The position numbers and the translations under genes were made by a program. Source: an uncultured Prevotella sp. (GTDB lineage: Bacteria > Bacteroidota > Bacteroidia > Bacteroidales > Bacteroidaceae). Taken from it: a stretch of DNA of 40,644 nucleotides. Positions 1 to 40,644 of the stretch are shown here, one piece after another. The DNA lies in the NCBI GenBank assembly GCA_944319945.1, contig CALUFN010000020.1, forward strand, positions 1 through 40,644, written 5' to 3'. A model generated the notes under the pieces. That model saw only the letters and a program-made list of their open reading frames with translations, ran no database searches and was not told the origin of the DNA. Positions within the stretch are counted from its first letter, which is position 1. Each line of letters begins with the position of its first letter.

Positions 1-133
1 GAAAAAGCCGTCTATGAATATCGACATCATTGACAAAAGCCGGCTTATTACGTAAGGTTCTTACATCGAACTCACGTAGTTTTAGGATTGAGACTTACGG
101 ATTGCAACAGTACAAGACAAAATCAATGACAAA
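1..133. other. Left-edge non-coding stretch
   Basis: I see no convincing gene here. One plus-strand frame is open from the edge to a stop near base 55, so the last 17 or so codons of a gene lying left of the window are possible, but the peptide is too short to recognise. A short palindrome, AAGCCGGCTT, lies near base 38-47. Confidence 0.3.
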
Positions 134-174
134 ATAAAAGGTTACCTTTCGGCCGTCGAAAGGTAACCTTTTAT
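134..174 (-). terminator. Hairpin terminator after the porin gene
   Basis: Two perfect 18-nt arms (134-151 and 157-174) enclose a 5-nt loop. The hairpin lies about 100 bp beyond the porin stop codon on the minus strand. The arms end in AT-rich sequence on both sides, so it could act in either direction. It is built entirely from two units of the 22-bp repeat family. Confidence 0.6.
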
Positions 175-179
175 GCTTC
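136..179. repeat. 22-bp-period dyad repeat, array 1 (2 units)
   Basis: Two 22-bp units (136-157 and 158-179) share the pattern AAAGG-nnn-CCTTT followed by about 9 variable bases. The two cores are reverse complements of each other, so the array also forms an 18-bp perfect stem. The same unit recurs in three other intergenic arrays in this window. Known repeat-family membership cannot be checked here. Confidence 0.8.
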
Positions 180-274
180 AATATGCCTCGTTTCAGACTA
201 TGATCAACGGCGTTTCACAAGCCACGAAGCTCCGTTTTCAACTCATAAGGTAAATACGCCGCAGCATGCGCAGG

Positions 275-2614
275 CTAATTAAAGAAATTCCATGACACGC
301 CGAAACGGAACACACGGCCATTGATAGGATAATGCGGCACGAGGAAACTGTCGCCGCTGCTTGCATTGACATGGCTCATCATCACGAAAAACCTCGTATG
401 CTTAAGATGCATGTTGGCATAAACGTTTACTATTGGGTAATTGCCTATCTCAACGTTTGCATCGCCGTTGTCCTGCACCGCATATTGGCCTAATGCCGGG
501 CTGTAATCCAACGCCTTGTATTTCGTGAAGAAGCGCACGTCGCCTCCCAAATCAACGGTCAGCACCTTAGCCAACCTGAAGTGTAAATACAGGTTGGAAT
601 AAACGTTGAGTTGCGGAAGAGGCAAAACGTCTTCGTTGCTCGACTTCTGGTAAGTTATCATATTCTCCCAGTTAAGCGGCCCCAGCTTGAAATCCTGTGA
701 TAATTGCAACGTGAGCAGGCTGATGTTACCTGAATGCTGCCTTACGGCCACCGTATTATCCGTGCGCCCGTAATTGTTGGTGACATTATAGCTTTGGGCG
801 AAATACGTAAGGTTCTGCAAGTTGTCATACGCTACGCGTAATTTAGTGCGCGTGCGCCTCAATGAGAAAAGCCCCTCGATGTGTGTACGCAACTCTTGGT
901 CGAGCCCGTCGTTGTCCCACCAATAATGCTTAGAATGGTAATGGCGGTAATAAAAAGTGGGGTTTACCCTGTGGAAATACGCCTTTGCCGCAAGCGTCAC
1001 CGTATCCTTAAACAAGCGAAAATTAAGATCGGCGTTGCCGTCAATCTTCAACTGCCCTGCATCTTCTCCGAGCAGCCATGCCTCAGCCGTGACATCATAG
1101 TGCAACGTTTTTCCCTGGGCCTTAATCAGCTGTCCGCCAACACTCAGGTTATGCTCGTTGTACGAGTTTCTGCCACCGAGCGAATCAGGAAGCGTGAAAT
1201 GCCGCAAGTCTGAAGTGACGAACGCCCTCAATCCGGCCTTTGCCCACTTGTTAAACCCTTCGAGCAAAGCTACGGCAAACGTATTCTTCAACGAATAATG
1301 AGTTGTTCGGTCATATATCGAATCGCCCGAAAATTTTTCATTTACGGGGAATGTCGACGCATAGTAGCCTTCAGGGGTCTCATAGGCTTGGTATATGCGT
1401 GAATAATTGTCAAACTTAAGAGTGTGTATAAAACTTGTCACGGGCACGTATTCATCCTTAAGCCAAGCCGTATCGGGCGTTTGGGTGGTAGCCTCACGCT
1501 CTTTCGACGCAGCTATCAGGCTGTCGGCAGCGGCTTTGTCTACCGATATTCTACCTGTAGAAGTCGTGGTCGTATCGGCCGGCTCGTTACCTGCTATCAC
1601 GGCATCGTCAGGACGCCCGGCGAAGGTCTTTTTCTCTTCAAACTCCTCCTCGTCAAACTCCACGCCGGCCTTTCTCGCTTTTTTCCTCGCTTCCTCTTTT
1701 GCCTTCTTTTCCTCGTTCTCCTTTTGTGACGCAAGGGCGAACTTCTTCGCGTTAATCTCGTCCTCGGTCATCTTAACCTTCCGGTTGAAACCCAGACTAT
1801 ACCTATGCGAGAAAAACAAATGCTGGTTGTCATTACGGTTCCAGTTCTGCTGCAGCACGGTCGGAATCTCGTTGTTACGGAAATTGTCGTCAAAAACTTC
1901 AGGATGCGTCACGTATCGGTCGTCCGTGATACCGCCGTTCTCGGCCACCTTCTCATGATTGGTCGAAAACAACAAATGGGCATTATACCTGTCGCCGATA
2001 TAAGACCCGTAGACTGAATAATTGAAATGCGCAGTGCTTTGATTCTGGAAATATCCGCGACCGTAAATATAATCAAACTTAAAGCCTACTCCTATCTTCT
2101 TGCCCGCATTAACTCCGAAAAGCGCCCGGAAATGGTTTTCACCGTTTTCCCTGTTACCGCATTCATTATACGATATGTTCGTTATCGGCGAAAGGGTGTT
2201 GGTGAAATGAAACTGGCTCACAGGAGTTATGAAATAGTCATAAGGCTGCGTAAAGACAAACTGGTCTGCCTCGCTGCGGTCTATGAAAATACGGTTTATG
2301 CGCGGCGAGCCCACATTACCCAGCGTGGTGTATTCACCGCGTAAACCTCCGTCGAAAATAGTGTTCATGAACATGTGGGGCATAGTGTCGGGCTCAGCCG
2401 CAATACGTTCGCCGAAACGTTCGTCTACCGTCCACACCTTAAGTCCCTTAGGTATCTCCTTGTTCCCTGACGACAAAGAGTCACGCTTCGTTGCGCTGTT
2501 TCCGCTCGTAAATTGGCCCGAATCAGTCAGCTGGTTGAAGTTCTGCGCGAAACCGGGAACCAGCATTCCCGACACTAATGATATGACAAAAGCTATGAAT
2601 ATCTTTGTTTTCAT
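275..2614 (-). CDS. Putative outer-membrane porin (Porin_10-type)
   Basis: This 779-residue protein resembles the putative porin family of Bacteroidota, expected to form an outer-membrane beta-barrel for passive solute entry. The chosen start is the internal ATG at 2614. It gives a clean Sec signal peptide (MKTKIFIAFVISL..., cleavage near GFA-Q) and an ATGA overlap with the upstream gene; a longer reading to 2635 would add eight residues ahead of the signal. A highly charged Lys/Glu-rich stretch, probably coiled coil, lies around residues 290-340 and is followed by a Thr/Ala-rich linker. The rest alternates hydrophobic and polar residues as in beta-strands. The protein ends with the aromatic sequence FGVSWNFFN, as expected of a barrel assembly signal. 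It is the last gene of a three-gene minus-strand cluster. The substrate is unknown. Confidence 0.85.
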   Translation of the reverse strand: MKTKIFIAFVISLVSGMLVPGFAQNFNQLTDSGQFTSGNSATKRDSLSSGNKEIPKGLKVWTVDERFGERIAAEPDTMPHMFMNTIFDGGLRGEYTTLGNVGSPRINRIFIDRSEADQFVFTQPYDYFITPVSQFHFTNTLSPITNISYNECGNRENGENHFRALFGVNAGKKIGVGFKFDYIYGRGYFQNQSTAHFNYSVYGSYIGDRYNAHLLFSTNHEKVAENGGITDDRYVTHPEVFDDNFRNNEIPTVLQQNWNRNDNQHLFFSHRYSLGFNRKVKMTEDEINAKKFALASQKENEEKKAKEEARKKARKAGVEFDEEEFEEKKTFAGRPDDAVIAGNEPADTTTTSTGRISVDKAAADSLIAASKEREATTQTPDTAWLKDEYVPVTSFIHTLKFDNYSRIYQAYETPEGYYASTFPVNEKFSGDSIYDRTTHYSLKNTFAVALLEGFNKWAKAGLRAFVTSDLRHFTLPDSLGGRNSYNEHNLSVGGQLIKAQGKTLHYDVTAEAWLLGEDAGQLKIDGNADLNFRLFKDTVTLAAKAYFHRVNPTFYYRHYHSKHYWWDNDGLDQELRTHIEGLFSLRRTRTKLRVAYDNLQNLTYFAQSYNVTNNYGRTDNTVAVRQHSGNISLLTLQLSQDFKLGPLNWENMITYQKSSNEDVLPLPQLNVYSNLYLHFRLAKVLTVDLGGDVRFFTKYKALDYSPALGQYAVQDNGDANVEIGNYPIVNVYANMHLKHTRFFVMMSHVNASSGDSFLVPHYPINGRVFRFGVSWNFFN

Positions 2615-2841
2615 TTCAAGAAACGGAAAACACATTCGACAATCTTAAACGCCATAGCTATCAATATTATTATCGTACCGGTGTTTTGGTTACCGTAAAA
2701 ATACACTACGATGCCTATCACTGCGACAACCATGAAAATGATATTCAAAATATTGCGCAACACGATATACTTATCGTTAACTTTTTCCCGTCTATCCTTA
2801 AAAGCCTTATTCTCGGCCGGGTTGTCCTGATTAGTAATCAT
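2611..2841 (-). CDS. Small membrane protein of unknown function
   Basis: This 76-residue protein is not recognised. It has a charged N-terminal third (about residues 1-26) and then two hydrophobic segments, roughly residues 28-49 and 54-70, suggesting a two-helix inner-membrane hairpin. Its TGA stop overlaps the porin ATG (2611-2614), so translation of the two is probably coupled. The upstream DUF4468-type gene ends 34 bp before its start. It could be a small helper of the porin or simply a co-transcribed passenger; the sequence does not decide. Confidence 0.7.
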   Translation of the reverse strand: MITNQDNPAENKAFKDRREKVNDKYIVLRNILNIIFMVVAVIGIVVYFYGNQNTGTIIILIAMAFKIVECVFRFLK

Positions 2842-6764: not shown

Positions 6765-7820
6765 ATGAAAATGGAACAAAGAATTATCATATCCAAATGT
6801 CTTAATCAAGATATCGCCGAAGCAGTCTCAAGATGCGAGCACGACAAGCTGTTCGTCATTGCCGACGAAACGACTAAGGAATTATGCCTGCCTGTAATAA
6901 ATGATTTTGCCTGCATAGAAGGCTTCACGCTGATAAGCATACGCCCCACAGACGCGAATAAGAATTTAGACTCGCTTGCCCACATTTGGACAGAGCTGAG
7001 CAACAATGAGGCTACGCGCCATTCATGCATAATAAACATTGGCGGAGGAATGGTGACCGATATCGGTGGATTCGCGGCCGCCACTTTTAAGCGCGGCGTA
7101 AACTACGTCAACATCCCCACGACGCTGCTTTCAATGGTAGACGCTTCGGTCGGCGGCAAGACGGGAATTAATTTTAACGGACTGAAGAATGAAATAGGAG
7201 TATTCAGTAATCCTAAGACTGTAATCATCAATACGGACTTCCTCAAGACGCTTGACGCGGACAACCTCAATTCAGGTTACGCCGAGATGATAAAGCACGG
7301 CTTAATAAGCAGTGAGGCAATGTGGGCCGAACTAATGAGATACGACATAACACGTCCCGACTTCGCCTGTCTACAAGAGATGGTGGCTCAAAGCATTAAG
7401 GTAAAGGAGAGGATTGTGGAAGAAGACCCTTATGAAAAAGGCATAAGGAAAGCCCTTAACTTAGGACACACGATAGGCCACGCATTCGAGTCGTTCGCCC
7501 TGAAGTCCGGCAGGCCGATACTCCACGGATATGCCGTAGCATACGGACTGGTTTGCGAACTGTACTTAAGCTGCATAAAAACCAAATTCCCGACAAGCAT
7601 AATGCACCAGACAGTAAGATATATTAAGGATACATACGGTACGTTCGCGTTCACATGCAAGGACTACGACACTCTCGTAGAACTCATGAAGCATGACAAG
7701 AAAAATACTTTCGGGACCATCAATTTCACACTTCTCGGCGGAATAGGTGATGTAAAGATAAATCAAACCGCCACGGAAAAAGAGCTTTTCGAGTCGTTGG
7801 ACTTCTTCCGTGAAGGATAA
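6765..7820 (+). CDS. aroB: 3-dehydroquinate synthase
   Basis: The enzyme converts 3-deoxy-D-arabino-heptulosonate 7-phosphate to 3-dehydroquinate in the cytosol, the second step of the shikimate pathway, using NAD and a divalent metal. The 351-residue length is normal. The NAD-binding glycine motif is seen as NIGGGMVTDIGGFAA, followed by the substrate region IPTTLLSMVDASVGGKTG. Metal ligands are expected in SGYAEMIKHG (Glu), LNLGHTIGHAFE (His) and HGYAVAYG (His), and all are present. The ATG at 6765 follows a strong -7 box; an ATG two codons later is an alternative. truA and a DMT-type transporter follow on the same strand (gaps of 74 and 32 bp), and a strong terminator closes the group. Confidence 0.97.
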   Translation: MKMEQRIIISKCLNQDIAEAVSRCEHDKLFVIADETTKELCLPVINDFACIEGFTLISIRPTDANKNLDSLAHIWTELSNNEATRHSCIINIGGGMVTDIGGFAAATFKRGVNYVNIPTTLLSMVDASVGGKTGINFNGLKNEIGVFSNPKTVIINTDFLKTLDADNLNSGYAEMIKHGLISSEAMWAELMRYDITRPDFACLQEMVAQSIKVKERIVEEDPYEKGIRKALNLGHTIGHAFESFALKSGRPILHGYAVAYGLVCELYLSCIKTKFPTSIMHQTVRYIKDTYGTFAFTCKDYDTLVELMKHDKKNTFGTINFTLLGGIGDVKINQTATEKELFESLDFFREG

Positions 7821-9715: not shown

Positions 9716-10600
9716 ATGGCACATAACATATTCAAAGGCTTAGGCATAGCCCTCGTCACACCTTTTACTTCCGACAACTTAGTTGATTATACGGCACTGA
9801 AGAAACTGATAACATACCAACTTGAAAACGGTGCCGACTTTTTTTGCATACTTGCCACGACCGGCGAGACCCCCACACTGACAAAAGAAGAGAAGGCCAA
9901 GATCAAGCAAATAGTAGTAGAGACGGCCGGCGACAAGGTGCCGATCCTTATGGGATGCGGCGGCAACAACACGGCAGAAGTGGTCAACGAGCTGCAAACG
10001 GCCGACTTCGCCGGCATCGACGGCGTGCTCAGCGTATGCCCTTATTACAACAAGCCGTCACAAGAAGGACTATACCAGCACTTTAAGACAATAGCGGCAG
10101 CGACCAAACTGCCAGTGGTGTTATACAACGTGCCCGGGCGTACAGGCGTAAACATGAAAGCGGAGACCACGCTGCGCCTCGCACACGACTGCCCTAACAT
10201 CGTAGGCATTAAGGAAGCCGCCGGCAGCCTTGAGCAGGTGGACGAGATAATAAAGAACAAACCTGACAGATTTGACGTGATCAGCGGCGACGACGCCCTC
10301 ACCTTCCCCATGATTGCATGCGGAGCGGCCGGAGTGATATCAGTGATAGGCAACGCCCTGCCAAAAGAGTTTTCACGCATGATACGCCTTGAAATGAATG
10401 GAGAAATAGAAAGCGCACGCAAGATACACCATAAGTTTACAGACCTCTTCAACCTGCTCTTTGTAGACGGCAACCCTGCGGGAGTAAAAGCCATGTTGCA
10501 CGAGATGGGCATGATTGAAAACGTGTTGCGCCTCCCGTTGGTGCCTACAAGGCTTACGACGATGCAACGCATCAGCGAATGTCTCAAGTTCAGACTGTAA
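9716..10600 (+). CDS. dapA: 4-hydroxy-tetrahydrodipicolinate synthase
   Basis: DapA condenses pyruvate with aspartate semialdehyde, the first committed step to lysine and meso-diaminopimelate, in the cytosol. At 294 residues it has the normal length. The TIM-barrel hallmarks are visible: ATTGETPTL near residue 48, CPYYNKPSQEG near 107, YNVPGRTG near 137, and the Schiff-base lysine Lys166 in GIKEAAGS. The SGDDAL and GAAGVISVIGN segments are also typical. It has its own promoter 32 bp upstream and its own hairpin terminator, so it is probably a single-gene transcript. Confidence 0.97.
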   Translation: MAHNIFKGLGIALVTPFTSDNLVDYTALKKLITYQLENGADFFCILATTGETPTLTKEEKAKIKQIVVETAGDKVPILMGCGGNNTAEVVNELQTADFAGIDGVLSVCPYYNKPSQEGLYQHFKTIAAATKLPVVLYNVPGRTGVNMKAETTLRLAHDCPNIVGIKEAAGSLEQVDEIIKNKPDRFDVISGDDALTFPMIACGAAGVISVIGNALPKEFSRMIRLEMNGEIESARKIHHKFTDLFNLLFVDGNPAGVKAMLHEMGMIENVLRLPLVPTRLTTMQRISECLKFRL

Positions 10601-10660: not shown

Positions 10661-10735
10661 CCTCTTACAATTCATATCCACATCCGCAACCGTCTGTAGC
10701 ACAATGCATTACGGAAGACGGTACCAGTCGTTGGC

Positions 10736-10823
10736 AAAAGGATGCCTTTTAGCGTATGAAAAGATACCTTTTACGGCACGAAAGGATAGCTTTTACCACA
10801 TGAAAGGACACCTCTTACCGAAC
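10736..10823. repeat. 22-bp-period dyad repeat, array 2 (4 units)
   Basis: Four consecutive 22-bp units (10736, 10758, 10780, 10802) each contain a diverged AAAGG-nnn-CCTTT dyad, then TTA and a variable 6-bp end. A degenerate fifth unit (10824-10845) may extend into the last codons of the nitroreductase gene. The array sits between convergent dapA and nitroreductase genes, 11 bp from the latter's stop codon. Confidence 0.85.
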
Positions 10824-10833
10824 GGCAAGGCGG

Positions 10834-11466
10834 CTAATAGCCTACCGGCATGTAAACCAAAGGCACGATGCTCGGCTTTATGCCCAAAAACTTCTGAACG
10901 CTCTCAGGCTTTTCGCCGGCATAACAGCAAACCGTACCCAAGCCGTTTGCCGCACAATACAAATAAACATTCTGGACTACGGTCCCGGCATCTATTCCGC
11001 AAAGGGCCATGTTGCCGTTCTGCAGTTCGGTGTCAGACGCTATGACAAGCACCATCGGCGCAGTTTTGATAAACTGATTACGGCCGGCAACGGCCTTACG
11101 CAAGTCGCTACTTCCGATCTTCACCAGCTTGTTGGCTTTTGCGTCATACCTGAACGTGCCGTCGGCCTTACCTACATATATTATCACATCCTGCATATTA
11201 CGTGCCGACGGGGCCGTGCGCTTGCCGTCGGCACGGTTTACGCCGTTAGCCGCCCAAAGCAAATCGGAAATGGTCTGATCCGAGATTTCCTTATTCGTAA
11301 AGGCCCTTGTAGAGCGCCTGTCGAGCAAGGCTTTTGTCAAACTCCCGTTTACCTCGCTCTTCGTCGGAGCCGGTAATGACACCTCCTGCCCGTTGGCCTG
11401 TCCGCAAAACGCCACCAAACCTATAACCGTTGAAAATGCCATTGATAACAATCTGTTCTTCATCAT
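10834..11466 (-). CDS. Exported nitroreductase-family (SagB/ThcOx-like) protein
   Basis: This is a protein of about 210 residues with an FMN-dependent nitroreductase fold. The core begins with LDRRSTRAFTNKEIS, the usual FMN-phosphate-binding arginines, and continues with LLWAANGVNR, TAPSARNMQDV and a C-terminal NGLGTVCCYAGEKPESV segment. An N-terminal Sec signal peptide (KNRLLSMAFSTVIGLVAFCGQANG) points to export, unusual for a flavin oxidoreductase. The chosen start is ATG 11466; ATG 11463 is equally possible, and a longer reading to 11523 would put extra polar residues before the signal. A TATATTTG box lies 28 bp upstream. The substrate is unknown, and the physiological reaction may be oxidation rather than nitro reduction. 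Confidence 0.82.
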   Translation of the reverse strand: MMKNRLLSMAFSTVIGLVAFCGQANGQEVSLPAPTKSEVNGSLTKALLDRRSTRAFTNKEISDQTISDLLWAANGVNRADGKRTAPSARNMQDVIIYVGKADGTFRYDAKANKLVKIGSSDLRKAVAGRNQFIKTAPMVLVIASDTELQNGNMALCGIDAGTVVQNVYLYCAANGLGTVCCYAGEKPESVQKFLGIKPSIVPLVYMPVGY

Positions 11467-11493
11467 ATTACATTCTTTTATTAGTTTAGCATG

Positions 11494-11501
11494 CAAATAT
11501 A
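11494..11501 (-). promoter_or_regulatory. -7 promoter box for the nitroreductase gene
   Basis: On the minus strand this reads TATATTTG followed by C. It supports the start at 11466/11463 because the longer ORF start would lie upstream of the promoter. No clear -33 element was seen. Confidence 0.55.
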
Positions 11502-11656
11502 TTACTTTATAAGTAAAATACATAATTAATCAACCTTATTTTTATTTTGTTATATCTAACTAACTATTTACGCACAAACGTTTACCAATGCATTAGCGGC
11601 AATCACATAATAAACACATCGACTTTCGCGAAAAGCGAATATTATTATCCCGTAGA

Positions 11657-15635: not shown

Positions 15636-17195
15636 TTATTTTTTTATTATTGGTAATGATATTATAAAATTCGTTCCTTTTCCACGTTCACTTTCTACGT
15701 GTATCTCGCCTTTATGCAGGTCTACCATTTTCTTAACATAAGCCAATCCGAGGCCGAAGCCTTTCACGTCATGCACATTTCCCGTATGGACACGATAGAA
15801 TTTCTCAAATATCTTCTTAAGATTTTCCTTCTTTATGCCCATGCCGTTGTCCTTAACGGAGAGATAAAGTTTCTCTTTATCATTCCATGTTTTTACCGTC
15901 AACTCAACCGGCCGCTCCGGATCACGGTATTTCACGGCATTATCAAGCAGGTTGAAAATAACATTCGTAAAGTGCATTTCGTCTACGTATATAGTCGGTT
16001 CGGTGGCGTCCAGGGCAGTCGTAATATGTCCTCCGGTATGCTCCACGCGTAGCGTGAACGTATTTGCGACACTCTCCACAAGCTCGTTCAAGTTGAGTTC
16101 CTTCTTATTAAAGATCGCCTTCTTCCTGTCAAACATCGACATCTGCAACACTTTCTCCACGAGGAAACGCAATCTTTTAGACTCATCGTTGATTACGCCT
16201 CCTAAATGTTTCATCATAACGGGGCTTTTCGTCACAGCCTCGTCGTTAAGCATCTGGGCGGCAAGAGATATGCTGCTTATAGGCGTCTTCAACTCGTGCG
16301 TCATGTTATTGATAAAATCGTTCTTTATTTCCGTATAACGTTTCTGCCGGAAAATAACGACTATGGTAAAAATAAACGTAACAAGCAACACCACGGTAAA
16401 CGCCACGGAAGGTACCATAAACCTGACTCCGCTGAAAATATAACTGCCCATATCAGGGAAATGTATCTTCACGACTCCCATCTTATTAGAGGGATCATTT
16501 CTGAACAGCACTTGTGAGTACGTATAATCTTCGCCTTCTTCGGTATAATCGGGACAACGGTACACCTCCCTACCATCTTGCGTGGATACTGTGAAATGAT
16601 AAGGTATGTCAATGCCGTTGTTCATCAATTCGGTCTTAATGTCCTGATCAAGCATCTTGAAATTGATTCTCTCACGCAGCGGTTTGTCAGAGGCTGTGTA
16701 CAATATGCTGTAAACCACCTCGTCGAGCAGGGCTTTCTGGTAGATGTAACGATTCTTTACAATCTCCCTCATCGATTTCGTTGCCTCCGAAATCGAGTTC
16801 TTATCGCTACGTAGGATCATAGCTTTCGGCATTGACGACGGCTTCATGGCAATCGTTTTCAGTTCAAACGAGGTGTAAGGATATCCGCCTTTTCCCTGTT
16901 CAACGTACTGATGCGAATGGCCTAAAGCCCCGTCGTCACCATTGTTGACGCCAATATCCACCACATCCTTTTTCGAGTTGCGCTCGGATGCATTAACGTC
17001 ACGTTCAAGATACCTCAAAGTCTCATTAAGTTCAAGGTTGCGTGACGCTTGGTAAAGGGCCTTATTGACAGACTCGTCAAACTGCTCCTTCTTCATCTGC
17101 ACCATCGCTTGGATGTATTTTAATTGGAGGAAAAGCAATCCGAGAAATGCCAATCCCATTATTATCGCTATCAACCAAATCGTCGTTTTCTTCAT
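15636..17195 (-). CDS. rprX: Sensor histidine kinase RprX
   Basis: A 519-residue inner-membrane sensor kinase, partner of RprY. One transmembrane helix lies at residues 5-25, followed by a periplasmic domain of about 240 residues and a second helix at about 265-288. The dimerisation/phosphorylation helix carries His300 in NNMTHELKTPISS. The ATPase domain shows the N box (NVIFNLLDNAVKYRD), G1 (VKDNGMGIKKEN), the F box (FEKFYRV) and G2 (KGFGLGLAYVKK). The signal it senses is unknown. A TATATTTG promoter box ends only 5 bp before the ATG, implying an almost leaderless transcript. Confidence 0.9.
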   Translation of the reverse strand: MKKTTIWLIAIIMGLAFLGLLFLQLKYIQAMVQMKKEQFDESVNKALYQASRNLELNETLRYLERDVNASERNSKKDVVDIGVNNGDDGALGHSHQYVEQGKGGYPYTSFELKTIAMKPSSMPKAMILRSDKNSISEATKSMREIVKNRYIYQKALLDEVVYSILYTASDKPLRERINFKMLDQDIKTELMNNGIDIPYHFTVSTQDGREVYRCPDYTEEGEDYTYSQVLFRNDPSNKMGVVKIHFPDMGSYIFSGVRFMVPSVAFTVVLLVTFIFTIVVIFRQKRYTEIKNDFINNMTHELKTPISSISLAAQMLNDEAVTKSPVMMKHLGGVINDESKRLRFLVEKVLQMSMFDRKKAIFNKKELNLNELVESVANTFTLRVEHTGGHITTALDATEPTIYVDEMHFTNVIFNLLDNAVKYRDPERPVELTVKTWNDKEKLYLSVKDNGMGIKKENLKKIFEKFYRVHTGNVHDVKGFGLGLAYVKKMVDLHKGEIHVESERGKGTNFIISLPIIKK

Positions 17196-17460: not shown

Positions 17461-19623
17461 TCATTCGTCCTTATCGGCCATTTCACCCTCATGCTCCTTA
17501 ATGAGTTCCTGCTGGATTTCGTTAGGAACAAGCTCGTAACTTGCAAACTTCGTAGTGAACGAAGCACGTCCGCCGGTAAGTGAACTTAAGGCTATTGAAT
17601 AGCTGGCAAGTTCCTTCTGCGGTATCTTAGCCTGCAACTTCTGGTATCCGGCCTCGCTGTCCATGCCCATGATAAGGGCGCGGCGGCTCTGCAAGTCGCT
17701 CATCACATCACCCATGAAATCAGCCGGAACGTAAACCTCCAAATCGTAAATAGGCTCAAGAATCTTCGGGCCAGCATTCTTGAACGCATCCGAGAAGGCA
17801 TGGCGGGCTGCCAACATGAATGAAAGTTCGTTACTGTCTACCGGGTGCATCTTGCCGTCATACACCACCACGCGCACGTCGCGTGCGTAGCTTCCGGTAA
17901 GCGGACCCTGCTCCATGCGCTCCATTATACCTTTTAATATGGCAGGCATAAAACGCGTATCAATAGCACCGCCGACAACGGAGTTGATGAACACGAGCTT
18001 GCCTCCCCACTCAAGGTCGACCACTTCCTTGCTCTTGATGTTCATCTTAAACTCCTGGCCGTTAAACTTATAGGTAACAGGATCGGGCATTCCGTCGGCA
18101 TAAGGCTCAACGATGAGGTGCACTTCGCCGAACTGTCCGGCGCCTCCCGACTGCTTCTTGTGGCGGTAGTCGGCACGGGCGGCCTTAGTTATCGTCTCGC
18201 GGTAAGGAATCTTGGCGTCGACAAACTTAACAGGCAGTTTCTCGTTGTTCTCCAAACGCCACTTCAATGTGCGTAGGTGAAATTCGCCTTGACCGTGTAT
18301 TATGGTCTGCTTCAATTCCTTACTCTGCTCTACCACCCACGTCGGGTCTTCCTGGCGCATCTTGGTGAGCGCAGCCATGAGTTTTTCAGTGTCGGCCTCG
18401 TTTACCGCCTTAATTGCGCGTGAATATTTAGAGTTGGGGTATTTTATGAAGTCAAACCTGTTGTCACAATCTTTTCCGTTAAGCGTATTTCCGGTTTTCA
18501 CGTCCTTCAGCTTCACGGTGCAGCCGATATCGCCAGCGTTCAGGCAGTCAACCGGCTGGCGGTTGGCTCCTGCGCAAACGTAAATGTTAGCCATGCGCTC
18601 CTTAGAGCCACGGTCGGCGTTGTTCAAGTCGTCGCCCGGCTTAACGCTTCCGCTCATCACCTTAAAGTAAGACACCTCGCCGATATGCGGCTCTACGCCC
18701 GTTTTGAAGAAATAAAGCGACTCTGGACCCGACGCGTCGGCAGGCACCTCTTCGCCGCGAGTGTTATGCACCTTTGGCATTTCGCTCACGAACGGCACCA
18801 CGTTGCCTAAGAACTCCATCAACCTGCGCACGCCCATGCTCCTGCCGGCGCACACGCAGAATACGGGGAATATGGAGCGTGTGACAAGCCCCTTACGTAT
18901 GCCTTCACGCATTTCGTCTTCCGTGAGGGTCTCCTCTTCAAAGAATTTCTCCATCAATGTCTCGTCGTTCTCGGCCGCAGCCTCAACGAGAGCCTTATGC
19001 AGCTCCATGGCCTTGTCCATTTCCTCGGCGGGAATGTCCTCTATGATGGGAGCGCCGCCTTCGGGTTTCCATGAATACTTCTTCATCAGGAGCACGTCGA
19101 TGAGGGCGTTGAAGCCATCACCTGTCTCTATCGGGTATTGTATCTCGACGCATTTCGGACCGTAGATGTCCTTCATGCTGTGTATTATCGCATCAAAGTC
19201 ACACTTTTCGCTGTCGAGCTGGTTGATAAGGAATATCACCGGCTTCTTCAGCTTCTCAGTATAACGGAAGTTGTTTTGAGTCCCCACTTCGGGACCGTAT
19301 TGGCCGTTGATCAGGATCAAAGCCTGATCAGTAACGTTCAGTGCCGTTATGGCTCCTCCGACGAAGTCGTCAGAACCGGGACAATCGATGATATTAAGTT
19401 TCTTGTTGTTCCACTCTACATTAAAAACGGTTGAGAATACCGAGTAGCCGTATTCCTGCTCAACCGGGAAATAATCACTTACGGTGTTTTTAGCCTCGAC
19501 GCTTCCGCGACGTTTGATCACACCACTTTCATACAACATTGCTTCGGCAAGAGTAGTCTTGCCCGAACCCGCACTGCCAAGCAGGGCGATGTTTTTAATC
19601 TCATTAGTTTGGTAAACTCTCAT
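17461..19623 (-). CDS. fusA2: EF-G2-type elongation factor G paralogue
   Basis: A 720-residue protein with all five EF-G domains. The P-loop is GSAGSGKTT (residues 16-24) and the G4-like motif is NQLD. Two features set it apart from canonical EF-G. The switch II motif DTPGH is here DCPGS (residues 80-84), so the catalytic histidine is serine. The switch I region ERGITIT reads EYGYSVF. Domain IV and V motifs (YRHKKQSGGAGQFGEV, SYARDVRVVVYDG, LIMGMDSE) remain EF-G-like. This matches the Bacteroides EF-G2 class, reported to support translocation with little or no GTP hydrolysis and to matter under carbon limitation. Assignment to that class is inference from the substitutions and length. Divergent from hemW, closed by its own terminator. 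Confidence 0.88.
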   Translation of the reverse strand: MRVYQTNEIKNIALLGSAGSGKTTLAEAMLYESGVIKRRGSVEAKNTVSDYFPVEQEYGYSVFSTVFNVEWNNKKLNIIDCPGSDDFVGGAITALNVTDQALILINGQYGPEVGTQNNFRYTEKLKKPVIFLINQLDSEKCDFDAIIHSMKDIYGPKCVEIQYPIETGDGFNALIDVLLMKKYSWKPEGGAPIIEDIPAEEMDKAMELHKALVEAAAENDETLMEKFFEEETLTEDEMREGIRKGLVTRSIFPVFCVCAGRSMGVRRLMEFLGNVVPFVSEMPKVHNTRGEEVPADASGPESLYFFKTGVEPHIGEVSYFKVMSGSVKPGDDLNNADRGSKERMANIYVCAGANRQPVDCLNAGDIGCTVKLKDVKTGNTLNGKDCDNRFDFIKYPNSKYSRAIKAVNEADTEKLMAALTKMRQEDPTWVVEQSKELKQTIIHGQGEFHLRTLKWRLENNEKLPVKFVDAKIPYRETITKAARADYRHKKQSGGAGQFGEVHLIVEPYADGMPDPVTYKFNGQEFKMNIKSKEVVDLEWGGKLVFINSVVGGAIDTRFMPAILKGIMERMEQGPLTGSYARDVRVVVYDGKMHPVDSNELSFMLAARHAFSDAFKNAGPKILEPIYDLEVYVPADFMGDVMSDLQSRRALIMGMDSEAGYQKLQAKIPQKELASYSIALSSLTGGRASFTTKFASYELVPNEIQQELIKEHEGEMADKDE

Positions 19624-20909: not shown

Positions 20910-20942
20910 CGCCGTCCGCCGACCATAAAATCCGAAGCCTCA

Positions 20943-20981
20943 CGAAAGGTAACCTTTGGCACCATCAAAGGTTACCTTTCG
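20943..20981 (+). terminator. Hairpin after hemW formed by two repeat units
   Basis: Perfect 15-nt arms (20943-20957 and 20967-20981) enclose a 9-nt loop, 34 bp after the hemW stop codon. No T-run follows, so activity as an intrinsic terminator is uncertain. It is made of units 1 and 2 of array 3. Confidence 0.55.
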
Positions 20982-21031
20982 CCGTCTAAAAGGCTATCTT
21001 TAACACGCCCAAATGCGGCCTTTCGCAAGGG
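20944..21031. repeat. 22-bp-period dyad repeat, array 3 (4 units)
   Basis: Units start at 20944, 20966, 20988 and 21010. The first two carry perfect AAAGG-nnn-CCTTT dyads; the third and fourth are diverged but keep the 22-bp register and the CTTT half. It lies directly downstream of hemW. Confidence 0.8.
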
Positions 21032-21358
21032 TGCTGATAAAAGATTGATTTCCAAACACTTACCAATATAGCAAAAATCACGGTCGCTGCAGAATGGTGC
21101 AAAAGCCGCGCGCGGCCGCCAAACGCCGGCAAGACGCGTGCGGCCGACGTGCCGTTACATTATGAAAACATTTCAAAGAATATCGTTTCATTCTTTTGCA
21201 AATCTTAGTTTATTCTACCTATTTTTCGTAAATTTGCAGCTGTTTAAAATACAAAAACACCGTAGGGCCGACAAGACAGGCCGGCGGCAAGGCAGCGGGC
21301 ACAGCCCGCAAAAGCCTCCGCGGCAAGGTCAAAAAAGCCCCGGACTAAATTAACGACC
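21032..21358 (+). other. Non-coding leader region with GC-rich islands
   Basis: No gene is supported. A GC-rich island at about 21100-21155 contains the 12-bp palindrome GCCGCGCGCGGC (21105-21116). An AT-rich promoter segment follows, and then a second GC-rich stretch (21260-21340) holding a small hairpin, GCGGGC-aca-GCCCGC (21295-21309), just before the aminotransferase gene. A 71-codon frame crosses the region but spans the promoter and has no protein-like features. Confidence 0.4.
21229..21240 (+). promoter_or_regulatory. -7 promoter box for the aminotransferase-permease operon
   Basis: TAAATTTGCAGC fully matches TAnnTTTGCnnC. It predicts a leader of about 115-120 nt, long for this window and GC-rich. 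The -33 region is weak. Confidence 0.65.
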
Positions 21359-29528: not shown

Positions 29529-30854
29529 ATGGAAACAGACATAATCATAATAGGCGCAGGCCCGGGCGGATACCACACTGCGGCATACGCCGCGAACAAG
29601 GGCCTGAGCGTCACGATAATCGAAAAGAGCGACGTAGGCGGCACATGCCTGAACCACGGTTGCATACCGACAAAGGCCATGTGTCATGACGCCAGGCTTA
29701 TAGACGCGGCCGTAGGTGTCTGCGGTTCGAGACCTGTCGTTGATTTCAACAAGATAACTGAAAGGAAACGCACCGTAGTGGAAAAGCTGCGCAAAGATGT
29801 CGAATCGCTGATGTCGCAGCCGAAAATAACGTTAGTGCGTGGAAACGCCTGTTTCATCGACGAGCACACCGTTGCAGTCAACGACCAAACATATACGGCA
29901 AACAACATCATCATTGCCACCGGCTCACGCCCCAAGATGCCGCCGATTGAGGGCATAAGCCTGCCGGGCGTGATGACTTCTGAAGAAATGCTTGAGATAA
30001 GGGAGCTGCCTTCATCCTTATGCATTATCGGAGCAGGCGTGATAGGACTCGAATTTGCCTCGATATTCAACAGCTTCGGTTGCCGTGTAACCGTAGTTGA
30101 ATATATGAAAGAATGCCTTCCCCCATACGACGCAGACATATCAAGACGCGTGCGCAAGGCAATGGAACGGCGCGGGGTAGAGTTCATAATGCAAGCCCAA
30201 GTATCATCCGTCAGGCAAGCAAGCGGCACTCTTGAAGTGGGCTACGAGAGCAAGGGCAAGACCGGAACCGTTATGGCTGACAAGGTATTAGTGGCTACGG
30301 GCAGGGCTGCAGCAACTGACGGTCTGTCAATAGAACGTGCCGGCATCACTCTCGATAAAGGACGCATACCCGTTGACGGCAACATGGAGACATGCATAAA
30401 AGGCGTCTATGCCGTAGGCGACGTAAACGGACGCCAGATGCTGGCCCATGCCGCCATAATGCAAGGCATGCGCACTGTGAACCACATCACAGGCGAATCG
30501 GACAACATCAACACCGAACTCATCCCGTCTGCCGTGTTCACCGTGCCTGAAGCTGCCGCTGTCGGACTTACAGAAAGCCAATGCCGCGCTGACGCCATTG
30601 ACTATAAGGTACGTAAGATACCATTCCGTGCCAACGGGCGCGCCGTGGCCGACGAATCAGACGAGGGAATCATCAAATTAATATATGATTCAGACAAACG
30701 TATCTTGGGTTGCCATGCCTGTGGTAATCATTCAGCAGACATCGTTCAAGAGGCAACAGTACTGATGGCTCTGAACTGCACTACCGACAAACTGCGCGAC
30801 ATCACCCACATTCATCCTACAATAGCCGAACTGCTGCACGATGCGGCAGATTGA
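29529..30854 (+). CDS. lpd: Dihydrolipoyl dehydrogenase (L protein)
   Basis: A 441-residue flavoprotein that reoxidises the dihydrolipoyl arm of GcvH and reduces NAD+. The FAD-binding GAGPGGYHTA (residues 9-18), the redox pair Cys40/Cys45 in GGTCLNHGCIPTK, the NAD-binding GAGVIGLEFASIF and the C-terminal HIHPTIAELLHDA with the catalytic His-Glu pair are all visible. It is about 25 residues shorter than the usual 465-475, apparently through shorter loops rather than a truncation. It closes the gcv operon and is followed by a very strong terminator. Confidence 0.95.
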   Translation: METDIIIIGAGPGGYHTAAYAANKGLSVTIIEKSDVGGTCLNHGCIPTKAMCHDARLIDAAVGVCGSRPVVDFNKITERKRTVVEKLRKDVESLMSQPKITLVRGNACFIDEHTVAVNDQTYTANNIIIATGSRPKMPPIEGISLPGVMTSEEMLEIRELPSSLCIIGAGVIGLEFASIFNSFGCRVTVVEYMKECLPPYDADISRRVRKAMERRGVEFIMQAQVSSVRQASGTLEVGYESKGKTGTVMADKVLVATGRAAATDGLSIERAGITLDKGRIPVDGNMETCIKGVYAVGDVNGRQMLAHAAIMQGMRTVNHITGESDNINTELIPSAVFTVPEAAAVGLTESQCRADAIDYKVRKIPFRANGRAVADESDEGIIKLIYDSDKRILGCHACGNHSADIVQEATVLMALNCTTDKLRDITHIHPTIAELLHDAAD

Positions 30855-30938: not shown

Positions 30939-31270
30939 GTTTTTCGGCATGTATTGTTTAATTTCTGAAATTAACCCATTACGGAATTATGTTCGCTTCG
31001 TTAAAATGGCGCTTCTAATTTGATACATTCCGGCTGCTTTTACTTACGGTTTCAACTTATTCCCGACACGTTTGCAAGAAGCGGTCTTTTACAGCGTAAA
31101 AGGTCATCTTTCAAAAGGCAAAAAGCCATGTTTTGAAGGCTGAAAGGATACCTTTTGAAATGGTAATCATCCGCATGTGCCACTAAAATAATAATTACGT
31201 CAACATGTAAAATTACGTGGGGTATGAATATTGTTCATTAGATTTATTCATATTTCACCGAAAAAATTAC
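30939..31270. other. Intergenic region with repeat array 4
   Basis: No gene is supported. Besides the 22-bp repeat array (31076-31163) it holds a direct repeat of AATTACGT (31193-31200 and 31211-31218, 18 bp apart) upstream of the glycosyltransferase promoter box. I see nothing else. Confidence 0.4.
31076..31163. repeat. 22-bp-period dyad repeat, array 4 (4 units)
   Basis: Units start at 31076, 31098, 31120 and 31142. The last is the best match (GAAAGGATACCTTTT); the others are diverged but keep the register. Some spacers are themselves complementary around the third unit (TTCAAAA with TTTTGAA). Confidence 0.75.
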
Positions 31271-40328: not shown

Positions 40329-40555
40329 AACTTTTACATTAATTCACTTCTAAGTACATGTAAGCTAACGCCGACATATACCTTACCGACAAACCCACGC
40401 ACTACGGCCGCCGCCGAGACGGCAGACAGTCAAAACGTTTGTTACGGATGCGCAAAAATACATAAAATATTGATACTATTTGAATGAAATCTGCTAAAAA
40501 ACACCAAACGTAATATATTTTTAATTCAACCATATTAATAAGGTCGTGCGGTTTT
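40329..40555 (-). other. nqrA leader and upstream region
   Basis: There is no gene here. The first 125 bp form the predicted nqrA leader, with a short GC-rich patch at about 40407-40428. The AT-rich part beyond the -7 box shows no further motif that I can identify before the tandem repeat begins at 40556. Confidence 0.4.
40453..40460 (-). promoter_or_regulatory. -7 promoter box for the nqr operon
   Basis: On the minus strand this reads TATTTTTG followed by C, matching TAnnTTTGC. No convincing -33 TTTG was found at 19-21 bp, which could mean that an activator is needed. The leader would be about 120 nt. Confidence 0.55.
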
Positions 40556-40644
40556 ACGGTTATGCGATTTACGGTTATGCGATTTACGGTTATGCGATTT
40601 ACGGTTATGCGATTTACGGTTATGCGATTTACGGTTATGCGATT
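40556..40644. repeat. 15-bp tandem repeat, about six copies, cut by the window edge
   Basis: Five exact copies of ACGGTTATGCGATTT start at 40556, 40571, 40586, 40601 and 40616. A sixth from 40631 is cut at 14 bases by the window end. A degenerate part-copy may precede them. No start codon or ribosome-binding site supports translation. The array begins about 95 bp upstream of the nqrA promoter box. Confidence 0.92.

Follow-up and report, generated by a model that had tools for sequence, protein, structure and literature searches.

Paired 22-bp palindromic units with a one-sided, phased flanking motif form a dispersed intergenic element in Prevotella

The genome of an uncultured Prevotella sp. 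contains a dispersed, intergenic element that typically consists of four palindromic units spaced at intervals of 22 bp. The centers of units 1 and 2, and those of units 3 and 4, tend to be complementary, and one side of the array carries a further motif (the head) at distances that increase in steps of about 11 bp. This element may be a DNA-level architectural element of a new type, kin in kind to the BIME and RIB repeats of enterobacteria, the most likely of the readings considered, though tentative and at somewhat short of an even chance. The window (i.e., the entire 40,644-nt stretch analyzed, contig C20 of the host genome G000) contains four such arrays. A preliminary description of this DNA had listed all four, with starts that were one base early, and had missed the four-unit design, the pairing of units 1 + 2 and 3 + 4, the end motif in helical phase, and the restricted range of genomes that have the element. 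The features in the window are as follows.

Array 1, 137..193, no strand: units at 137 and 159 exact, with a degenerate third at 181; 3' of a Porin_10 gene (275-2635, minus strand); no head found; covariance model R1 match at 106-221 (+), E 3.2e-9; DNA fold z -6.75.
Array 2 (the array under study), 10737..10815, no strand: units at 10737, 10759, 10781, and 10803; between a DHDPS-family gene (plus strand, ends at 10600) and a convergent nitroreductase-family gene (10834-11523, minus strand); R1 match at 10707-10821 (+), E 3.6e-9; DNA fold z -2.82.
Head motif of array 2, 10685..10704, minus strand: offset 32 from the array edge, the third phase position; matrix score 11.1, cut-off 8.4.
Array 3, 20945..21023, no strand: units at 20945, 20967, 20989, and 21011; tandem gap flanked by genes of the radical-SAM/HemN_C and aminotransferase types; R1 match at 20939-21058 (-), 79.1 bits, E 2.4e-16; DNA fold z -5.45.
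Head motif of array 3, 21045..21064, plus strand: offset 21 from the array edge, the second phase position; matrix score 15.6, cut-off 8.4.
Array 4, 31077..31155, no strand: units at 31077, 31099, 31121, and 31143; tandem gap between a Pyr_redox gene (ends at 30854) and a glycosyltransferase gene; R1 match at 31071-31184 (-), E 3.5e-10; DNA fold z -3.12; best head score 5.5, below the cut-off of 8.4.

The unit period in these arrays is exactly 22 bp, composed of a 13-bp dyad and a 9-bp spacer, as previously proposed; the count of 14 units becomes 15 when the degenerate third unit at 181 is included. At the ten half-site positions, six of the 15 units match exactly, six differ at a single position, and the units at 181, 31077, and 31121 each differ at three. 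Tandem Repeats Finder (minimum score 30) reported only the 10737 array among the four. When the window arrays are folded as single-stranded DNA, the first hairpin forms only in arrays 1 and 3, and the full two-hairpin fold, which is seen at locus L031:4202, forms in no window array. The gene upstream of array 4 has orthologs in several relatives that are also followed by a hairpin or an array, and the relative L016 has a head at offset 10. For Rfam families, the window arrays have no match; elsewhere in the window, the P10 sRNA model gives a hit at 16767-16874 (E 0.06), under its gathering score. In addition, a second flank type (about GTCGGAAGCAAGTGAAAACCGTAAGCAAAAGCC) is found beside some arrays without a clear head, namely left of 31077 in the window and at L028:4231, L041:6701, and L108:16245. 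The window ends within a perfect 15-bp tandem repeat (TTTACGGTTATGCGA; 6.1 copies at 40553-40644), and similar DNA is present in L067.

The host genome assembly (2,581,549 bp in 88 contigs; 91% complete) was sampled through the window and 40 further stretches, which total 838,318 bp with 60 kb of N and 778 kb readable. This sample produced 107 calls, including 20 single units and 10, 17, 59, and one arrays of two, three, four, and five units, respectively (i.e., 87 arrays of at least two units). The distance between adjacent good units is 22 bp in 164 cases, 44 bp in eight, and 110 bp in one. The first 20 stretches were chosen partly for holding listed matches. However, the first set with the window (50 arrays of at least two units in 438 kb) and the second set (37 in 340 readable kb) have similar densities, indicating that the choice of stretches did not inflate the density. 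Extrapolation gives roughly 290 arrays per genome. As the preliminary description had suggested, a scan was extended to the whole genome and to relatives, and unit counts were compared with shuffled DNA. The 2.58-Mb genome has 220 occurrences of the exact two-unit pattern and none of its reversed control. In 20 stretches, 46 arrays have at least two units and 40 have at least three, whereas each of three first-order Markov shuffles had none of either. Single units are not in excess (11 of 57 calls in the first 20 stretches, compared with 9, 10, and 14 in Markov shuffles), and a role as an uptake sequence (DUS/USS) was rejected on this ground. The same design is present in five other genomes. 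Arrays of at least two units number 24 in 400 kb of G361 (11 with four units), 32 in 400 kb of G374 (18 with four units), and 34, 19, and 18 in G350, G206, and G291 (14, 11, and 14 with four units). Among the 214 arrays of at least two units in the six genomes, 127 have four units and only four have more. Separately, the first 40 kb of contigs C4 and C5 of the host genome together contain only two arrays of at least two units in 80 kb, below other contigs; these contigs may represent foreign DNA, islands, or a binning error.

In the host genome, the unit can be written as AAAGG(YNR)CCTTT every 22 bp. Among 33 four-unit arrays, conservation starts and stops with the array, except for a short TTGCA/TGCAA edge. 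The mean identity between four-unit arrays is 0.88 at half-sites and 0.42 at variable positions. These values bear out the earlier proposal of selection on spacing rather than recent copying. It had also been stated that centers and spacers vary while half-sites are kept, which holds except that the centers covary between units 1 and 2 and between units 3 and 4. In a scan of dyad centers in 57 of the 59 four-unit arrays (two near-duplicates were dropped), the two highest excesses of complementarity were at the midpoints of spacer 1 (z 5.5) and spacer 3 (z 3.9). Among 87 head-oriented arrays, the 3-bp centers are exact reverse complements for units 1 and 2 in 33 (null 7.9) and for units 3 and 4 in 26 (null 8.0), but for units 2 and 3 in only five (null 7.4); the four pairs other than 1/2 and 3/4 give 9, 11, 5, and 7. 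When the 70 four-unit arrays are considered alone, the values are 26 for units 1 and 2, 24 for units 3 and 4, and 3-10 for other pairs. Because reverse complementarity links units 1/2 and 3/4 but not 2/3, the element can be described as two tandem 16-bp hairpins. Furthermore, the 2/3 pair has the same geometry without the excess, suggesting that template-switch correction of palindromes would be insufficient by itself to explain the pattern.

In alignment A1 (44 rows; four-unit arrays whose head has an offset of 9 or 10), the combination of both hairpins and the head palindrome exceeds all 500 shuffles (79.0% paired compared with 75.8%; covariation score 0.214 compared with 0.163). A full-length dyad (units 1-4 and 2-3) is weaker than the two-hairpin fold in these tests and was rejected as the main fold: its percentage paired was reached by 41 of 500 shuffles and its covariation score by 33, whereas its number of further pair types was reached by only two. 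By eye, the full-length dyad does suit individual elements (e.g., L031:17050 and L103:929). An apparent decay of unit 4 was given little weight (1.75 mismatches when three-unit arrays are included; 0.96, compared with 0.61-0.70, in four-unit arrays only). Variant units were also observed. An end unit AAAGRCGGCAAACGGCGTTGC (hairpin AACGGCAAACGCCGTTGC) adjoins normal units in L122 left of 750 and at L125:5024, L030:4644, and L119:430. The variant half-site GCATAT/ATATGC recurs (e.g., L027:17211 and L108:6453), and in some arrays it is matched by its complement in a second unit.

The head is a 20-bp motif (YTGRNNNYCARNNNGTTRC) obtained from aligned outward flanks and located on one side of the array. 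Using a cut-off set at 95% of the null, a head was recognized on one side in 88 of 121 discovery arrays (at least three units; G000, G361, and G374), on a second side in none, and on neither side in 33. The distance from the array to the start of the head is 9-10 bp in 53 cases, 20-21 bp in 22, 32-33 bp in eight, 43-44 bp in two, and elsewhere in three (29 once and 46 twice), such that 85 of 88 heads follow steps of about 11 bp. The same matrix was next run, with no retraining, on three genomes outside the training set (G350, G206, and G291). In these genomes, 43 of 53 arrays have a head (one array on both sides), with offsets of 9-10 in 27, 21 in 11, 22 in one, 32 in two, and 43 and 45 in one each; in comparison, 13 of 400 random stretches have the motif, with scattered offsets. 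Of these 43 heads, 41 fall within the offset windows of the discovery set (p 1.5e-32), as do 14 of 16 when the main peak is removed (p 4e-12); these p values assume that arrays are independent of one another, whereas some may be common to related species through descent. By arithmetic from the offsets, the head dyad is about 22, 33, 44, or 55 bp from the first-unit dyad, which places it on the 11-bp lattice that the array itself follows. In tandem gaps, the head points toward the upstream stop in 30 cases and toward the downstream start in 18, with no clear preference.

The right half of the head coincides with the IHF consensus WATCAANNNNTTR as given in PMC8942017; a table in PMC6907758 has this string in the H-NS row and another string for IHF, which looks like a swap. 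Allowing at most one mismatch, the strict consensus is present in 48 of 121 discovery arrays (40%) and 21 of 53 non-training arrays. The background is 229 of 2000 array-free intergenic samples and 78 of 2000 samples drawn at random from the genome. When the array flanks are read on the opposite strand, 30 of 121 and 17 of 53 qualify, in part owing to the palindrome within the head. Given these counts, the head is described as IHF-like, a motif that appears to resemble an IHF site in part, rather than as an IHF site. Another sequence was noted near arrays: a 70-bp stretch at L063:6-75, which contains ATCCAACAGATTTGCGGATGAACC, has at least 10 matches of 90-96% in G361, and the reverse complement of ATCCAACAGATTTGCGGATGAACC words flanks several G361 arrays.

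The orthologous places of ten arrays from two chosen stretches were inspected by eye in up to four genomes. For nine of the ten, one or more of the other genomes appears to have a complete or partial array at roughly the corresponding place, with numerous misses; for scale, the host genome has 78 arrays over 339 gaps. Neighboring genes at such shared positions have, for example, 74-86% nucleotide identity. The divergent-gap array L063:14974 has counterparts in G374 and G361; in G206 two units were called, and G350 has one unit, displaced by about 450 bp. G374 and G361 also share L063:19944, which differs between TTA|TAA (G000 and G374) and CCG|CGG (G361), corresponding to three paired changes. 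L063:3206 has an array in G361 and a single unit in G206, with none seen in G374 or G350, while L063:6615 is present in G350 and absent from G374 and G206. L063:8462 is absent from G361, the sole genome examined there. L030:13671 is present in G350, with none seen in G374, G361, or G206. L030:12154 has two units in G350, is uncertain in G374, and has no counterpart in G361 or G206. L030:18270 is present in G374, G350, and G206 and absent from G361, and L030:8009 is present in G361 and absent from G374. Comparisons of random stretches yielded 12, 25, and 30 conserved gaps; arrays were present in both genomes at one gap and in a single genome at another, numbers too small to weigh.

Only one case of recent copying is apparent among the four-unit arrays of the host genome that were compared. 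L031:4202 and L031:12122 have 0.95 identity at variable positions (the next-closest pair has 0.79), and this likeness spans from about 6 bp outside the array to about 5 bp beyond it. The flanks of the two arrays are unrelated, and their heads differ in both sequence and phase (offsets 10 and 32), indicating that an array can be copied without its head.

The distribution of the element is limited. The exact pattern is present in four of 301 genomes in a family sample, all of one genus, and in 13 of 299 genomes in a genus sample (G000 is counted in both). A cultured strain, Marseilla massiliensis An824, also has an array (L012). Model R1 was run on 14 genomes with exact pairs and 10 without. Matches at E <= 0.001 were found in 22 of the 24, with at least 22 matches in 15 (including G310, which has no exact pair) and 0-11 in nine; these counts are among 150 scored candidates, often both strands of one element, and are not copy numbers. 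At the G310 loci viewed, the 22-bp period and the hairpins are kept, while the cores are AAAGC/GCTTT or mixed, and a fifth unit is found in L190 and L194. Mixed cores also occur in G421 and G440. Across lineages, the core has drifted and the geometry has been kept. Among viral contigs, one has the exact two-unit pattern: a 4.2-kb contig of a viral catalog (L147; IMGVR_UViG_3300037400_005844) carries one element at 1134-1267, and may be misassigned chromosome. Other intergenic inverted-repeat families were seen at L030:10487-10574, 16572-16692, 17931-18007, and 18589-18663, at L125:4940-5470, and at L082 near 6820-6960; examples of such families are GTAGGGACATAATTTATTATGTCC..., TCATTCCGGGCTTAGACCCGGAAT..., CCTCCCCTTGGGGAGG..., and TTCATTATTCATTTTTCAT....

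Genomic location bears on two of the alternative explanations. Based on gene calls from a simple hexamer-based finder rather than curated annotation, none of the 87 host-genome arrays is inside a called gene and one overlaps a gene end by 16 bp, so that the earlier phrase "only between genes" holds for this genome; G361 and G374 have one array each that overlaps a called gene by 35 bp. Among gaps of at least 100 bp in the host genome, tandem gaps have 49 arrays in 75.9 kb, divergent gaps 22 in 30.5 kb, and convergent gaps seven in 11.4 kb (0.65, 0.72, and 0.61 arrays per kb, respectively); nine arrays were unplaced by gap type, eight of these near stretch ends. The preliminary description had offered an RNA element at transcript ends as one possibility. 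Such an element (i.e., a bidirectional terminator or 3'-UTR stabilizer of two hairpins) would be consistent with the strong hairpins, the A-tract before and T-tract after them, the location of 41 of 49 tandem-gap arrays in the stop-proximal half, and the hairpin in L013-L017, which begins 32-35 bp past the Pyr_redox stop codon as counted by eye. However, the three types of gaps are about equally dense, which argues against the elements being mainly terminators, and 22 of 87 arrays are between divergent genes rather than at transcript 3' ends. Moreover, among 50 transcription-oriented tandem arrays, mismatched variable pairs are depleted alike for G-T (92 compared with 113.0 expected) and A-C (79 compared with 99.1 expected), such that G-U is no better tolerated than A-C, and Rfam provides no match for the window arrays. 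A difference in center pairing in the discovery genomes (4.20 of 6 in convergent, 3.48 in tandem, and 2.25 in divergent gaps; p 0.0006, found after looking) was not replicated by the same measure in further genomes (4.00, 3.77, and 4.00; n = 6, 22, and 9), and this context dependence was dropped, although only nine divergent arrays were available. A terminator or other RNA role was thus rejected as the main function, and the RNA-level explanation is considered improbable. An operator array through which one regulator controls a regulon is highly improbable. Palindromic sites of 13 bp that share a helical register, together with a motif of the bend type, would suit it, but the extrapolated copy number of about 290 per genome does not. 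Furthermore, promoter-bearing gaps are not preferred, convergent gaps are included, and the nearest start in divergent gaps is at a median of 205 bp from the array.

Comparisons with known repeats bear on a third alternative, namely a selfish REP/MITE-like element that is mobilized in trans by a putative hairpin-reading enzyme, has no host role, and is kept similar by continued copying. Like the GTAG and CGTC REP superfamilies, the element is a short, high-copy, intergenic palindrome; the tag and RAYT features of REPs are lacking. GTAG is found at none of the three hairpin feet in 87 arrays (2.5-3.6 in shuffles), and CTAC at 0, 0, and 2. CGTC is at 2, 1, and 4 (0.9, 4.3, and 5.0 in shuffles), and its reverse complement GACG at 0, 8, and 1 (2.8, 2.2, and 1.8), raised at one foot only and far from a conserved tag. 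CGTC REPs, which PMC3733652 reports in Bacteroidetes, have stems of 8-9 bp and loops of 4-5 bp as described there, whereas the element here has 16-bp stems and 3-nt loops. Genes for Y1/RAYT transposases (PF01797) were found in 10 of 26 genomes but not in G000 (91% complete) or G374, the two genomes richest in the exact pattern. Beside the Y1 genes examined in relatives, L071-L076 (flanks up to 1.5 kb) have no units or R1 matches, L225 and L227 have none, and the nearest element matches in L082, L226, and L228 are more than 1.5 kb away; mobilization by RAYT has no support. HuH subclass 2.6 of the same phylum, characterized in PMC6006769 by atypical secondary structures and hairpin copies elsewhere in the genome, is set apart by this absence or non-adjacency of Y1 genes, as far as its description goes. 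The BrickBuilt MITE of Porphyromonas gingivalis is likewise a Bacteroidales tandem array with a unit of similar length (23 nt, AGAYCATARTATCCTCTCRTRTG; with leader and tail, and 18 full repeats in one element; PMC4596501); based on that account, it differs in period and has an unrelated consensus. High copy number, sharp edges, intergenic location, the recent copy pair with unrelated flanks, uneven distribution between species, and lineage-specific cores such as that of G310 all favor a selfish element. Nevertheless, near-identity is confined to one pair among the compared four-unit arrays, some positions appear to be common to species, and phasing of the head at several distances is unexpected of plain copying. 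A selfish origin is regarded as rather unlikely.

The architectural reading would accommodate the near-fixed unit number, the pairing within two hairpins, the one-sided head that is phased in both the discovery and non-training genomes, the similar density in all types of gaps, the several arrays with a counterpart at the corresponding place in other species (three paired changes in one of them), and the near-identical arrays with heads at different offsets. BIME-1/RIB elements are dispersed intergenic palindromes with an IHF-type site in hundreds of copies, according to PMC2817692 and PMC6907758, and the Prevotella element similarly combines such palindromes with an IHF-like motif. It differs in usually having four 22-bp units as two hairpins, in having the bend-like motif beyond the array edge, at distances that are phased, and in the lack of a GTAG tag and, in G000 and G374, of a Y1 gene. 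While RIBs are at 3' ends according to the title of Boccard and Prentki (1993), the Prevotella element is also found between divergent genes. HU/IHF-family genes are available (six PF00216 matches in G000) and are present in all nine genomes examined, both element-rich and element-poor. On the other hand, these genes are at least as common in element-poor genomes, the strict IHF consensus is also frequent on the opposite strand, and more than a quarter of the discovery arrays (33 of 121) have no recognized head.

The earlier suggestion of protein-binding arrays is compatible with a DNA-protein architecture, given that the one-sided, partly IHF-like motif shares the 11-bp lattice of the units. 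From these sequence patterns, we infer the bound proteins, bending, insulation, and every functional step as follows. A putative dimeric protein would occupy the dyads on one face of the DNA, while a putative HU/IHF-family protein would bind and bend the head, and the resulting complex may organize the chromosome or topologically isolate neighboring transcription units. Extrusion of hairpins or a cruciform would account for why unit 1 pairs with unit 2 and unit 3 with unit 4, and new copies can arise, as in the one case, when the array alone is copied or gene-converted. A more specific hypothesis, which is possible but doubtful, is that of a hitherto undescribed, chromosome-wide Bacteroidota boundary element, with up to four dyad sites and a bend site on an 11-bp lattice and a core that would change by lineage together with its putative protein, independent of RAYT/REP.

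The expectation that this repeat belongs to no described family agrees with the open-access literature searched, in which no description of the element was found. Among the papers searched, the exact unit string was found in one only, an unrelated human cancer paper. A microbiome survey of structured RNAs (PMC8040213) reports 250 palindromic candidates, several of them in Bacteroidetes. Likewise, no REP/BIME-type nucleoid element was found described for Prevotella in the open-access literature. Taken together, the near-fixed unit number, paired units, and helical phasing provide direct sequence evidence for a multi-protein DNA complex, many per genome, and the element makes the search for a nucleoid-organizing protein of Bacteroidota directly testable.
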